Origin: Acidovorax temperans | GTDB taxonomy: Bacteria > Pseudomonadota > Gammaproteobacteria > Burkholderiales > Burkholderiaceae_C | NCBI RefSeq assembly: GCF_006716905.1 | Contig: NZ_VFPV01000003.1 | Location: 434,001 to 498,000, forward strand | Direction of reading: 5' to 3' | Length of the DNA stretch: 64,000 nucleotides | Shown: piece by piece, positions 25,986 to 33,578 of the stretch | Layout of the letters: the number at the start of each line of letters is the position of its first letter | Position numbering within the stretch: the first letter of the stretch is position 1 | The notes under the pieces: model-generated | The model's database searches: none | What the model saw: the letters and a program-made list of their open reading frames with translations, nothing else | What the model was told of the DNA's origin: nothing | Made by a program: the position numbers and the translations under genes

Positions 25986-27165
25986 GTGTGGCGTCTCAAA
26001 AGTAAGCATCAAATAATGGTACTCGCTGCCCGCGCCACAGATGCCAAGATGGTGTCCGCACTTTTATGCCACACGAACGGCTTGGGATCCTCGTTGTGAC
26101 GATCAATGTATTCCCGTATGGATTGCTCCAGCTGAGCAACGCTGGTGTGGGCGCTGCGCTTGATCCACTGCTCGCTGATCTGGCTAAAGAAACGCTCGAC
26201 CAGATTGAGCCAGGACGCTGAGGTGGGCGTGAAGTGAACGTGGTAGCGAGGATGGGCTGCTAGCCAGGCCCGCACTGCCTGCGTCTTGTGCGTGCCGTAG
26301 TTGTCCATGATCAGGTGAATGTCTTGTTCGCCAGGCACCGCTGCATCGATGGCTTTGAGGAACTGCAGGAATTCCACACTGCGGTGACGGCGCTTGAGCT
26401 GTCCTATGACTTTGCCAGTGGCCACATCCAGCGCTGCAAACAGCGACGTTGTGCCATGGCGCTTGTAATCGTGCGTGCGCGTGCTGGGTTTGCCAAACGT
26501 CAGTGGTAACCCTGGTTGGGTGCGATCCAGAGCCTGGATCTGGCTCTTCTCGTCCACGCACAGCACCAAGGCGCGATCGGGTGGTGCCATATACAGCCCC
26601 ACCACATCCCGTACCTTGTCCACGAAATGGGGATCCGTCGATAGCTTGAAGGTTTCTTGCAGGTGCGGCTTCAGCCCAAAGGCATGCCAGATGCGCTGCA
26701 CCGTCGCGGGCGATACGCCAGCGTGCCGACTCATCTGGCGCACGCTCCAGTGCGTGGCGTTGTCAGGCTTGCTCTGGCGAACCTTGTCCACAATGAGCTG
26801 AACCTGCTCGTCGCCCACACTGCGCGGGCGGCCAGCGCGCGGGGCATCGGTCAAACCCGCCAGACGATACGCCCGGTAGCGCCGCCGCCACTTGGAGACA
26901 GTTTGCACCGTCGTGCCCAAGCGTTGGGCAATCATGGTGCCCGACTCCCCATCTGCGCAGCCCAGCACGATTCGCATGCGCAGCTTCTCGTCCTCGGGCG
27001 CTTTGCGTACGCGCAGTCGCGCATGCAGCTCTGCGCGCTCGGCATCGGTGATCTGCAGCTTCGTGGCGGGGCGTCCAGGGTGGGCCATCAGCGTAGTCTC
27101 CTATAAGGAAGCTGATTCGACCAACACCGGTCAAGATAGTTCTATCTATTTTTGAGACACCACAC
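25986..27165 (-). mobile_element. IS630-family element inserted in the MITE
   Basis: 1180 bp between duplicated TA dinucleotides (25984-25985 and 27166-27167), as IS630/Tc1-mariner elements produce. Ends are inverted repeats starting GTGTGGYGTCTCAAAA. It carries one intact transposase gene. The target TA is inside CACTAG of the MITE right end. Confidence 0.92.
26009..27088 (-). CDS. IS630-family transposase
   Basis: 359 residues, one uninterrupted frame. An N-terminal helix-turn-helix region ([19 protein letters not shown]) and a second HTH are followed by the DDE catalytic domain, with Asp in [10 protein letters not shown], Asp in [10 protein letters not shown] and Glu in [11 protein letters not shown]. 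It appears complete and potentially active. It ends 23 bp from the left end of the element. Confidence 0.93.
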
Positions 27166-27174
27166 TAGCATTCG

Positions 27175-27838
27175 GTAACCATCCCCCGGCAAAGCCGGGG
27201 GCATTCGGGATGTGAGCCGCTCAAAGCGGCTGTAAGGGGTCGCTAACGCGGCCCCTCATTCTTGGGGCCACCTATCGGTGGCTACTCACCTCCATAGACC
27301 GAGTTGGTCCAACCTCTCGTCTTCCTTCTCCTGGTTTCGGATGTACTCCCGTATCACCGCTTCGTCGCGTCCCACCGTCGAGACGAAGTACCCTCGCGCC
27401 CAGAAGTGCTGACCCACGAAGTTGCGCTTTCGCTCTCCGTACACCCGCGCAAGGTGGATTGCGCTCTTGCCTTTGATAAAGCCCACCACCTGCGACACCG
27501 AGTACTTCGGTGGGATCGACAGCATCATGTGCACGTGATCGGGCATCAGATGCCCCTCTTCAACCCTGCATTCCTTTTGCGCGGCCAACTTTCTGAATAC
27601 CTCACCCAGGTGTTCGCGTAGCTGCTTGTACAGCGTTCGCCTTCGACACTTGGGGATGAAGACCACGTGATATTTGCAATCCCAGGCCGTGTGACTCAAA
27701 CTTTCATACTTGTCCATCGTGTTTCTTCCTTTCGTTTGCTTGGCGGCTCACGATTGAAAGTCTCTACGGTGGACAACCTCCTGAAAAGTCAAACTTCTAC
27801 TGCCTCCCCGGCAGAGCCGGGGGGCCTCCTTTTGGTAG
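27175..27838 (-). mobile_element. IS200-type (IS200/IS605 family) element, tnpA only
   Basis: About 664 bp inserted without target duplication between ATTCG and CTAG of the MITE right end; one base of boundary is ambiguous. Subterminal hairpins stand at both ends: CCCCCGGCAAAGCCGGGGG on the left and a CCCCGGCAGAGCCGGGG stem on the right, as recognised by Y1 transposases. No tnpB is present. Confidence 0.85.
27286..27717 (-). CDS. tnpA: IS200-type Y1 transposase TnpA
   Basis: 143 residues, REP/HUH single-strand transposase. The metal-binding HUH motif appears as DHVHMML, and the catalytic Tyr lies in the C-terminal helix around AVIREYIRNQEKED. Begins MDKYESLSHTAWDCKYHVVF, a typical IS200 opening. 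Intact. Confidence 0.93.
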   Translation of the reverse strand: MDKYESLSHTAWDCKYHVVFIPKCRRRTLYKQLREHLGEVFRKLAAQKECRVEEGHLMPDHVHMMLSIPPKYSVSQVVGFIKGKSAIHLARVYGERKRNFVGQHFWARGYFVSTVGRDEAVIREYIRNQEKEDERLDQLGLWR

Positions 27839-29644: not shown

Positions 29645-30553
29645 TCAGCGGGCGGCCATCGCCTTGGCCACCTCGTTGGTGCCCTGGGCCGCGCCGCTTT
29701 GCGGCACCTGCTCCCCCGCGCGATTCGTGACTTCGGCCAGGCGGGCTGCAAGCCGCTCGGGCACCTCAGAGCCAATGCCCAAGTGCACGCCCTGCGTGAG
29801 CGTGATGTGGGCCGCCTCGAACGTGCCAGCCCCAGCGCACAGGATGGTGCGGGTGGGCGCGGACTCGTGCGCCAGCACCAGCATGGCGGGCACTACGGCC
29901 TCGGGCTTGAGGGCGTCCAGCACTTCCTGGGGCATCAGCCCTTCAGTCATGCGCGTGGCGGCTGTCGGGGCCAGGGCGTTGACGTGGATGTTGTGCTTGG
30001 CGCCTTCCAGGGCCAGGGTTTGCATCAACCCCACCTGGGCCAGCTTGGCAGCGCCATAGTTGCTCTGCCCAAAGTTGCCATACAGGCCAGTGGACGAAGT
30101 GGTCATCACGATGCGCCCGTATTGCTGGGCCACCATGTGCGGCCACACCGCCTTGCAGCAGTAGGCCGCGCCCATCAGGTGCACATCCACCACGAGCCGG
30201 AAGTCGTCCATGCTCATCTTGGCAAAGCTCTTGTCGCGCAGAATGCCGGCGTTGTTGACCAGTACATCCACGCGGCCCCAGGCGTCGATAGCTTGCTGCA
30301 CCATGGCTTCGACCGCTGCAAAGTCGGTCACCGAGGCTGCGTTGGCCAGGGCCTCGCCGCCCGCAGCACGAATCTCATCCACCACCTTTTGCGCCGCGCC
30401 TGCTGTACCACCGCTGCCATCCACGGCGCCACCCAGATCATTGACCAGCACCTTGGCGCCGCGGGCCGCCAGGGCCAACGCATGTTGACGCCCCAGGCCG
30501 CCACCTGCACCCGTGACGATGGCTACGCGGCCTTTGAATTCGATGTCTGCCAT
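29645..30553 (-). CDS. short-chain dehydrogenase/reductase (3-hydroxyacyl-CoA dehydrogenase-like)
   Basis: A 302-residue NAD(P)-dependent SDR. Cofactor motif is TGAGGGLGRQHAL, NNAG is present, and the catalytic pattern includes Ser in TTSSTGLYGNFGQ and YGAAK. The length and the extended C-terminus resemble the (3R)-hydroxyacyl-CoA dehydrogenase domain of peroxisomal multifunctional enzyme, so a role in fatty-acid oxidation is plausible but unproven. The ATG at 30553 (MADIEFKGRVAIVTG) is the start. Confidence 0.85.
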   Translation of the reverse strand: MADIEFKGRVAIVTGAGGGLGRQHALALAARGAKVLVNDLGGAVDGSGGTAGAAQKVVDEIRAAGGEALANAASVTDFAAVEAMVQQAIDAWGRVDVLVNNAGILRDKSFAKMSMDDFRLVVDVHLMGAAYCCKAVWPHMVAQQYGRIVMTTSSTGLYGNFGQSNYGAAKLAQVGLMQTLALEGAKHNIHVNALAPTAATRMTEGLMPQEVLDALKPEAVVPAMLVLAHESAPTRTILCAGAGTFEAAHITLTQGVHLGIGSEVPERLAARLAEVTNRAGEQVPQSGAAQGTNEVAKAMAAR

Positions 30554-30680
30554 GGAAAAACTCTCCGTATCAAAAAAAGGGGGGGAATGGGATGAATGTC
30601 GGAACAAAAACTGCTGGCAGCACTGTACGGCAACGCCCGCCGCGGCATCGTTGCGAAGGGGACAGAACGCCGTGCACGGG

Positions 30681-31080
30681 TTATCCCTGACAGCACTGGA
30701 CAAGCATGTGGATAAGTGGGGAAAAGTCTTGTATGAGACTGCTAAGTGGTTGATTTATCAAGAAGCCACTTGTGCTGCTTAATTTTTCATCAACGCAAAC
30801 CACTCAGGCGCTCAGTTTTCCCTGTTCACGCTGAACAAGCCTGTGCATAAGTTTTGACAAGTCTTGTATGAGCGATGCAACCCTTTGATTTTCAAAGACT
30901 TTCAACGAAATGCTGAAAAATTAAGCAAATCTACCACCCGGTGCTGACACGCCAGTTTTCAGCGGTTATCCCGTTCTTTTTTGGACAAAATTGTGGATAA
31001 CTCTGAACAAGTGCTGTATGAGCGTCGCAAGTCATTGATTTACAAGGGCCGCCTATCCGCTGCACATTTTTTAAGCAAAT
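30681..31080 (+). repeat. three spaced modules, each with a DnaA box
   Basis: Each module has a perfect TTATNCACA-type box read as TGTGSATAA (30707-30715, 30842-30850, 30992-31000), then exactly 8 bases, then AAGTSYTGTATGAG, then exactly 12 bases, then TTGATTT. An AT-rich TTAA-containing stretch follows 27-32 bases later. A TTATCCC or TTTTCCC and a GRACAA precede each box. Module spacing is 135 and 150 bp, all in one orientation. The arrangement looks like a DnaA-binding locus (origin-like, titration or reactivation site), but dnaA itself is not nearby. Confidence 0.75.
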
Positions 31081-31130
31081 TGGCACATGGGCTGCCGGCC
31101 CGGAAAAAACCGGGCAACACTGCGGCGCTC

Positions 31131-31170
31131 TATTTTTGATAGCATCTTGCGCTTGACTGTAAAGCGCTAA
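31131..31170. repeat. REP-like palindrome (copy e)
   Basis: TTTTTGATAGCATCTTGCGCTT followed by GACTGTAAAGCGCTAA and a C/T run, 12 bp before the DUF938 gene. It matches the dispersed family at TTGATAGC and the GCGCTT / AAGCGC arms. Confidence 0.6.
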
Positions 31171-31181
31171 CCCCCTTTTTT

Positions 31182-31808
31182 ATGCAAACACCGCCATGGG
31201 CCCACAGCCCCGCTGCTGAACGCAACCAGGGCCCCATCCTTGCGGTGCTGCAAGCGCTGCTCGCCCCCCATGGCAACGCTCTGGAGATTGCGAGCGGCAC
31301 GGGGCAGCACGCAGCGCACTTTGGCGCCGCCCTGCCCGGCTGGCGCTGGCAGCCCACTGACTGGCAAGACGATCTGTTCGCGTCGATCTCCGGATGGTGC
31401 GCGCACAGCGGTGCGCAGCAGGTATTGCCGCCGCTGCGGCTGGACGTGACCCAGGCGCAATGGCCCAGCGAGGGCGAGCCCTTCTCCACGCCGTTTGACC
31501 TGATTTACTGCGCCAACATGATCCACATTGCGCCCTGGGAATGCTGCGTGGCACTGATGCGCGGCGCCGCCCGCCACCTGGCCGCCGACGGAATGCTGGT
31601 GACCTATGGCCCCTATCTGGAGCAAGGGGTTCTCACTTCTCCAGGCAATCTGGCCTTTGACGCCAGCCTGCGAGCCCAAAACAGCCAGTGGGGCCTGCGC
31701 GCGCTGGAAGATGTCGCCCGGCAGGCAGAGGCGGCCGGCCTCCGTTTGAGCGAGCGCCACGCCATGCCTGCCAACAACCTGCTGCTGGTGTGGCGGCGCT
31801 CGCGTTGA
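31182..31808 (+). CDS. DUF938 SAM-dependent methyltransferase-like protein
   Basis: A 208-residue class I methyltransferase fold. Motif I is ALEIASGTGQHAAHF, motif II region is WQPTDWQDD, and IYCANMIHIAPWE is characteristic of DUF938 (METTL26-like). Substrate unknown. Followed after 61 bp by a ferredoxin gene in the same direction. Confidence 0.85.
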   Translation: MQTPPWAHSPAAERNQGPILAVLQALLAPHGNALEIASGTGQHAAHFGAALPGWRWQPTDWQDDLFASISGWCAHSGAQQVLPPLRLDVTQAQWPSEGEPFSTPFDLIYCANMIHIAPWECCVALMRGAARHLAADGMLVTYGPYLEQGVLTSPGNLAFDASLRAQNSQWGLRALEDVARQAEAAGLRLSERHAMPANNLLLVWRRSR

Positions 31809-32456: not shown

Positions 32457-33578
32457 ATGAACACCCCCCTCACCCCTGTGTCCATCTCGCCCGTCGAAGA
32501 CATCGTGGCCGACATGCGCGCTGGGCGCATCGTCATCCTGGTGGACGAAGAAGACCGTGAAAACGAAGGCGACCTGGTGCTCGCCGCCGACCACGTCACC
32601 CCAGAAGCCATCAACTTCATGGCCCGCTTTGGCCGTGGCCTCATCTGCCTGACGCTGACCCGCGAGCGTTGCGAGTTCCTGAAGCTGCCCCCCATGGCAG
32701 CGCGCAATGGCACGGTGTACAGCACCGCGTTCACTGTGTCCATCGAGGCAGCCGAAGGCGTCACCACCGGCATTTCCGCCGCTGACCGTGCCCGCACCGT
32801 GCAAGTGGCCGTGGACCGCAAGAGCCAGCCTTCCGACCTGGTGCAGCCAGGCCACATCTTCCCGCTGCAGGCGGTGGATGGCGGCGTGCTGATGCGCGCC
32901 GGGCACACGGAAGCCGGGTGCGATCTGGCCGCCATGGCCGGCTGCAGCCCGTCGTCGGTGATCTGCGAGATCATGAAGGACGACGGCACCATGGCCCGCC
33001 TGCCTGACCTGCAGCTGTTTGCCGCAGAGCATGGCCTGAAGATTGGCACCATTGCCGATCTCATCCAATACCGCAGCCGCAATGAATCGCTGGTGGAAAA
33101 AGTGGGCAGCCGCCCGCTGACCACGGCATACGGCACCTTCACCGCCCACGCCTTCCGCGACAAGCCCAGCCAGGCCGTGCACCTGGCCCTGGTCAAGGGC
33201 GAATGGACGGCCGACGAAGTGGTGCCCGTGCGCGTGCACGAACCTCTGTCGGTGCTTGACGCGCTGGAAATCAACCGCTCCATGCATTCATGGGGTCTGG
33301 ACACCAGCCTGCAGTACCTGGCCAAGCAGGGCAAGGGCGTGGCGGTGCTGCTGAACTGCGGCGAAACCGCGCAGCAATTGCTGGCCCAGTTTGAAGGCAC
33401 GGCCCGCGCATCTCAGGCCCCAGAGCGCGGCCGCATGGATCTGCGCACTTATGGCGTGGGCGCGCAAATCCTGCGCGACTGCGGCGTGCAAAAAATGGCA
33501 CTCATGGGCCAGCCCCGCCGCATGCCCAGCATGGCCGGCTACGGCCTCGAAATCACCGGCTTCATCCCCAAGGAATAA
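32457..33578 (+). CDS. ribBA: RibBA: 3,4-dihydroxy-2-butanone-4-phosphate synthase with degenerate GTP cyclohydrolase II half
   Basis: 373 residues. The N-terminal domain (about 8-205) makes the four-carbon precursor of riboflavin and keeps its active-site motifs [11 protein letters not shown] and [12 protein letters not shown]. The C-terminal half has the GTP cyclohydrolase II fold, but its zinc site is lost: where active enzymes have SECLTGD and RCDCGxQL, this protein reads [20 protein letters not shown]. The second activity is therefore probably absent, and a separate ribA should exist elsewhere. First gene of ribBA-ribH-nusB. Confidence 0.93.

Follow-up and report, generated by a model that had tools for sequence, protein, structure and literature searches.

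The window, that is the whole 64,000-nucleotide stretch analysed here, contains SDR and DUF938 genes that diverge around an interval in which I found no convincing gene: the frames there are short, apart from one that extends the SDR frame upstream. This agrees with an earlier sequence-only reading, which had placed a gene-free region between an SDR and a methyltransferase gene. The interval is occupied by three units of 112 bp each, arranged head-to-tail on the plus strand and matched by a profile, R1. The units, their parts and the flanking genes are as follows.

29645-30556, minus strand: SDR gene (PF00106), a syntenic marker outside the element
30681-30792, plus strand: unit 1 (R1 match 30676-30800, 90.5 bits; model columns 8-119)
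30681-30689, plus strand: unit 1 box I, TTATCCCTG, opposite in orientation to boxes II and III (from sequence and alignment)
30695-30703, minus strand: unit 1 box II (ACTGGACAA on the plus strand), 5 bp from box I, the E. coli DARS spacing
30707-30715, minus strand: unit 1 box III (TGTGGATAA on the plus strand), a consensus DnaA box 3 bp from box II
30743-30755, minus strand: unit 1 predicted IHF site (TAAGTGGTTGATT on the plus strand), fitting YAANNNNTTGATW
30777-30791, no strand assigned: unit 1 Fis-like 15-mer GCTTAATTTTTCATC, G-N13-C with an A/T-rich centre
30816-30927, plus strand: unit 2 (R1 match 30813-30936, 81.3 bits)
30816-30824, 30830-30838 and 30842-30850: unit 2 boxes I (TTTTCCCTG), II (GCTGAACAA) and III (TGTGCATAA)
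30878-30890 and 30912-30926: unit 2 predicted IHF site and Fis-like 15-mer
30966-31077, plus strand: unit 3 (R1 match 30962-31084, 84.8 bits)
30966-30974, 30980-30988 and 30992-31000: unit 3 boxes I (TTATCCCGT), II (TTTGGACAA) and III (TGTGGATAA)
31028-31040 and 31062-31076: unit 3 predicted IHF site and Fis-like 15-mer
31182-31808, plus strand: DUF938 methyltransferase-like gene (PF06080), a syntenic marker missing in some relatives
32457-33578, plus strand: ribBA (NF010626, above cut-off), the next syntenic marker

Two adjacent transposase frames, DDE_3 at 26009-27088 and IS200-like Y1 at 27286-27717, lie near the gshA end of the block. No RNA element reached the Rfam gathering threshold in the window, so a known RNA element was rejected as the identity of the array.

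Much of what the sequence-only reading described is indeed there: its three DnaA boxes begin at 30707, 30842 and 30992, all read on the plus strand and 135 and 150 bp apart, and each is followed after 8 bp by AAGTSYTGTATGAG and after a further 12 bp by TTGATTT, which turns out to be the 3' part of the IHF consensus. It was also right that the module is rigid, but wrong to start it at the box, as the unit begins 26 bp earlier with TTATCC and TGGACAA; likewise, the A/T tract it noted is present, not at a loose distance of 27-32 bp but at fixed columns 103-119 of the unit. The box-8-AAGTSYTGTATGAG pattern, with up to 3 mismatches allowed, has three matches in the organism's own 4.65-Mb assembly (6 contigs), all of them in the array, and its reversed control has none, which for this genome rules out a repeat found at many unrelated loci.

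A first alignment of 24 units ran without gaps over 133 columns, so the unit is both longer and stiffer than had been described. The larger set, obtained by an R1 profile search of 44 named loci and the window, comprises 124 units, all distinct, from 45 sources and with zero internal gaps. Along columns 8-119 each unit has an inverted box I (TTATCCC), then, 5 bp after its ninth base, box II (nCTGGACAA) and, 3 bp on, box III (TGTGGATAA), followed by a conserved TGTATG at columns 57-62, by AAGTSnTTGATTT, which fits the IHF consensus, and by TGC...GCA with an inner G-N13-C, the outline of a Fis site. Box II TGGACAA is found in 112 of the 124 units, box III TGTGGATAA in 105 and TGTATG in 111, counts that lean upward since the pattern by which the named loci were collected held these three parts. 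Box I, IHF and Fis-like parts stood outside that pattern, though inside the R1 model that gathered the units: inverted TTATCC at 5 bp from box II is present in 116/124, and the IHF consensus YAANNNNTTGATW (forms for IHF and Fis as given in the accessible text of PMC4245941) in 118/124 and at no other offset, with the strict TAA form in 42/124.

The Fis-like part is looser. The strict Fis consensus fits 32/124 units, the relaxed one 77/124 and TGC-N11-GCA 61/124; bare G-N13-C is present at this position in all 124, but also at one other offset in 96. A/T content is 84% in the centre of the site, compared with 53% and 36% in the columns beside it. Only 51/124 units have a fourth nine-mer, TGNACAA in form, 1 bp past box III. 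The 14-bp partner motif, which matched no binding site known to the sequence-only reading, is only partly explained: its TGTATG is well conserved, and I infer from its sequence that the motif may be a degenerate DnaA nine-mer in a 10-bp register.

Units are repeated head-to-tail on one strand in all 45 sources (two of which hold a single unit), with 1-7 units per fetched stretch. The outer spacing does vary, as the sequence-only reading had it, yet start-to-start distances in the 45 sources take few values, mostly 124/125, 134/135, 137, 172/173 and 184 bp, with no clear 10.5-bp period that would indicate helical phasing.

The distribution of the array in relatives shows that it is a real, conserved, syntenic and rigid module, and the family matches together with the shared locus rule out its absence from close relatives. 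The box-8-partner pattern was carried by 11 of 150 family genomes, own genome included (control matches were 0 in the rows concerned). R1 at E<=1e-3 matched 205 of 397 family genomes, representing 82 of 126 genera, and left 192 without a match; a hand count puts about 84 of the 205 at E<1e-10, and many of the others are weak and are not claimed as units. An order-level R1 search found 7 of 250 genomes at E<=1e-5, four of them in the same family. The pattern of box II, box III and TGTATG has exact matches in 44 stretches of genome contigs, for which the named genera are Acidovorax, Paracidovorax, Paenacidovorax, Diaphorobacter and Giesbergeria, the remaining stretches being titled only Burkholderiales, Burkholderiaceae, Comamonadaceae, Gammaproteobacteria or Proteobacteria.

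The array locus is syntenic, in the order gshA-SDR-array-ribBA. Thirty-nine of the 44 named loci have at least one of GshA, SDR, DUF938 and RibBA (>=55% identity) in the fetched stretch, and five (L063, L064, L070, L075 and L085) have none of the four. Among 30 unnamed loci, taken with 1.5-kb flanks, 17 have at least one marker gene. Frames beside the other loci could be assigned to a Pfam family in 7 of 30 cases only.

The array is intergenic and lies between oriC and the terminus, a position that rests on complete relatives, the organism's own genome being a six-contig draft. With the origin assumed near dnaA throughout, the arrays that 14 complete relatives have at the gshA-SDR-ribBA locus are separated from dnaA by 0.30-0.46 of the chromosome, seven on each arm, and arrays or units at other loci by 0.08-0.49. 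Of 36 genomes for which dnaA coordinates were available, 21 could be used for placing matches (the 15 left out are drafts, in several contigs, or have weaker matches), most chromosome lengths being known to 0.1 Mb only and those of G147, G259 and G270 being summed contigs. In 14/14 genomes with the array at the gshA-SDR-ribBA locus, it is oriented opposite to the assumed movement of the fork; this constant polarity may only reflect inversions about the ori-ter axis, which keep polarity. Three genomes of genus g17 (G016, G132 and G275) have a further array at 0.08-0.15 from dnaA, pointing with the fork. An E. coli-type dif pattern was found in none of 8 genomes.

What known element does such a unit resemble? 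In the accessible text of PMC5742627, the common core of DARS is three DnaA boxes with box I opposed to boxes II and III and the same spacing in DARS1 and DARS2. From E. coli K-12 I read the DARS1 core as TTATCCACT-5-TGTGGATAA-3-TGTGTATTA and the DARS2 core as TTATCCCAG-5-TGTGGATAA-3-GGTGTAAGA. The array core likewise has three DnaA boxes with box I opposed to II and III, which is the sequence definition of DARS, and shares box order, orientation and the 5- and 3-bp spacers with both E. coli sites, without a gap in 124 units. R1 was also scanned against 14,486 bases comprising DARS2, DARS1, datA and the organism's own dnaA locus. Its best match was the DARS2 core, at 8.2 bits and E 0.029 across a 12-bp gap; next came the DARS1 core, which aligned to columns 6-47 without a gap at 7.5 bits and E 0.048. 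Both E-values are weak alone, and datA, with 5.5 bits, ranked lower than either core.

DARS2 too is intergenic and has the inverted box I (TTATCCC), a 5-bp spacer, box II, a 3-bp spacer and box III, together with an IHF site and a Fis-type site; in the array the DARS2-type IHF site is assigned by consensus only, and the Fis-type site is a candidate whose strict consensus fits 32/124 units. However, DARS2 has one core in a 455-bp site (rppH-mutH), whereas the array repeats a 112-bp unit in tandem, and the DARS2 IHF sites found by scanning, with one mismatch each, lie about 200 bp away on the other side of the core, whereas the IHF and Fis-like sites of the array follow just downstream. Its neighbour genes also differ from those of the array. 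DARS1 (bioD-uvrB) shares order, orientation and spacers but is single-copy, and no IHF or Fis requirement for it is reported in the accessible part of PMC5742627. The chromosomal place of the array differs from those of both. Furthermore, the strong box is II in E. coli DARS1 and DARS2 but III in the array units. Some diverged units of the family (L127, L129 and L130) nevertheless have the E. coli-like form, with TTGTCCCCG or TATCCCCG, 5 bp, TGTGGATAA, 3 bp and TGTG, so that box II is the strong one, and the IHF and TGC..GCA parts come next.

The order, orientation and spacing of the boxes and the predicted IHF and Fis-like sites thus lend good support to one option of the sequence-only reading, a DARS-like site. 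I consider it likely, with a probability of about 0.68, that the array is a tandem series of DARS-type DnaA-reactivating elements and so a new form of an already known element type; judged by its sequence it is probably a site for the control of replication timing. On each unit ADP-DnaA would assemble on box I and, facing it head-to-head, on boxes II and III; IHF would bend the DNA about 30 bp downstream of the boxes, with help from a Fis-like protein bound to the A/T-rich 15-mer. ADP would then be released and apo-DnaA would depart and rebind ATP, raising ATP-DnaA for the next initiation, and repetition of the unit would give greater capacity, tied to local gene dosage. The host has Hda, above the model cut-off, and a 77-residue Fis homologue that scores 123.5 bits against the 122-bit cut-off of NF002517 but, with 79.6 bits, misses the 99-bit cut-off of NF001659, the E. 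coli-type model; it matches E. coli Fis structures by sequence, and the gene before it was read as dusB. Against the DARS reading stand the weak R1 match to the E. coli cores, the strong box in another position, the few strict Fis matches, the Fis score under the NF001659 cut-off, the other chromosomal place and IHF distance, the 192 family genomes lacking a match, and the limit that PMC4245941 sets on the DARS2 core and Fis.

The most serious alternative, itself an option of the sequence-only reading but one I hold unlikely, is that the array resembles datA or a titration site, gathering DnaA on tandem boxes with IHF and either hydrolysing its ATP or soaking it up, so as to lower initiation potential. 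With boxes II and III head-to-tail and the units consecutive, each IHF site in units 1 and 2 is flanked by DnaA boxes on either side, and IHF acts at datA too, according to the accessible text of PMC4245941. Like the array, datA combines DnaA boxes with an IHF site, a single one. Yet datA, defined by boxes 2, 3 and 7 in the text available of PMC5742627, lies beside tRNA-Gly genes, shows no inverted 5/3 core and ranks under both DARS cores with R1, and an inverted box I kept at 5 bp in 116/124 units would be needless for titration.

A region through which DnaA and IHF control the flanking genes is suggested by the position of the array between divergent SDR and DUF938 genes in the window, but no sigma-70-like promoter was found in 30500-31250. 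Moreover, some relatives (L107 and L113, for example) have the array flanked by SDR and RibBA only, with DUF938 not found, and arrays occur at other loci: in G016 and G132 one lies between IclR-type and OprM-type genes, so named from their translations, that converge on it (in G132 the SDR-RibBA locus, L007, carries units as well). A promoter array is improbable on these grounds and was rejected.

A secondary replication origin, another option of the sequence-only reading, would account for the joint presence of DnaA boxes, an IHF site and A/T-rich tracts. It would also fit the organism's own dnaA locus (L025), where a single consensus DnaA box lies upstream of dnaA and none elsewhere in the 3.5-kb stretch on either strand. 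However, GC skew has no switch in the window. Twenty 20-kb samples from the complete relative G003, whose dnaA and array lie at 3.33 Mb and 1.78 Mb respectively, place the switch from plus to minus at 0.98-1.2 Mb and that from minus to plus at about 3.1-3.84 Mb (skew is near zero at 3.30-3.56 Mb, and one odd plus sample falls at 2.58 Mb), not near the array. An origin is therefore very improbable and was rejected. Least probable of all, and also rejected, is a mobile or decayed repeat: several genera have units at more than one locus, but the own genome has three copies, all in the array, plasmid and phage collections gave no match at E<=1e-5, and comparison of 19 three-unit loci gives 73-78% identity between positional orthologues against 67% between units inside one genome, so that the copies are old and have been kept apart (a signal that is weak for the window's own three units).

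In the accessible text of the primary DARS2 paper, PMC4245941, the DARS2 core and Fis are limited to gamma-proteobacteria related to E. coli, and the available text of a later review gives the distribution of DARS as beta or gamma (PMC5742627). The core TTRTCC-N8-TGTGGAYAA-N3-TGTG, with at most one mismatch, was found in 256 of 370 genomes of the class; the control count is 0 in the rows displayed, but this control, the reversed pattern alone, ignores the clustering of DnaA boxes. Beside 30 such loci, own array among these, no neighbour gene of E. coli DARS or datA was found. At 10 of 29 fetched loci (own array excluded) an IHF consensus lies at a distance of 30-230 bp from where box I starts, other 200-bp bins holding 0-3, and at eight of the 29 it follows the core at 118-121 bp from box I, which by its sequence suggests a second, widespread module layout. 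These eight loci (L142, L147-L149, L152, L158, L160 and L163) belong to distant members of the class.

It is tempting, if still doubtful, to regard the DARS-type core with IHF as an ancient control element across Gammaproteobacteria, a class that in GTDB takes in the former beta. The Comamonadaceae would have turned one such element into a tandem array within a fixed region of the chromosome arm, and the number of units, together with local gene dosage, would determine the recharging of DnaA, as a countable replication timer. A literature search, with poor coverage of subscription papers, met no report of tandem DARS arrays, and DnaA reactivation sites have so far been worked out in E. coli. 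A compact and rigid unit, repeated up to seven times at a syntenic site, would thus offer a minimal, countable DARS-like element for reconstitution, and the array would let one test directly whether the timing of initiation is set by the number of units and their position.
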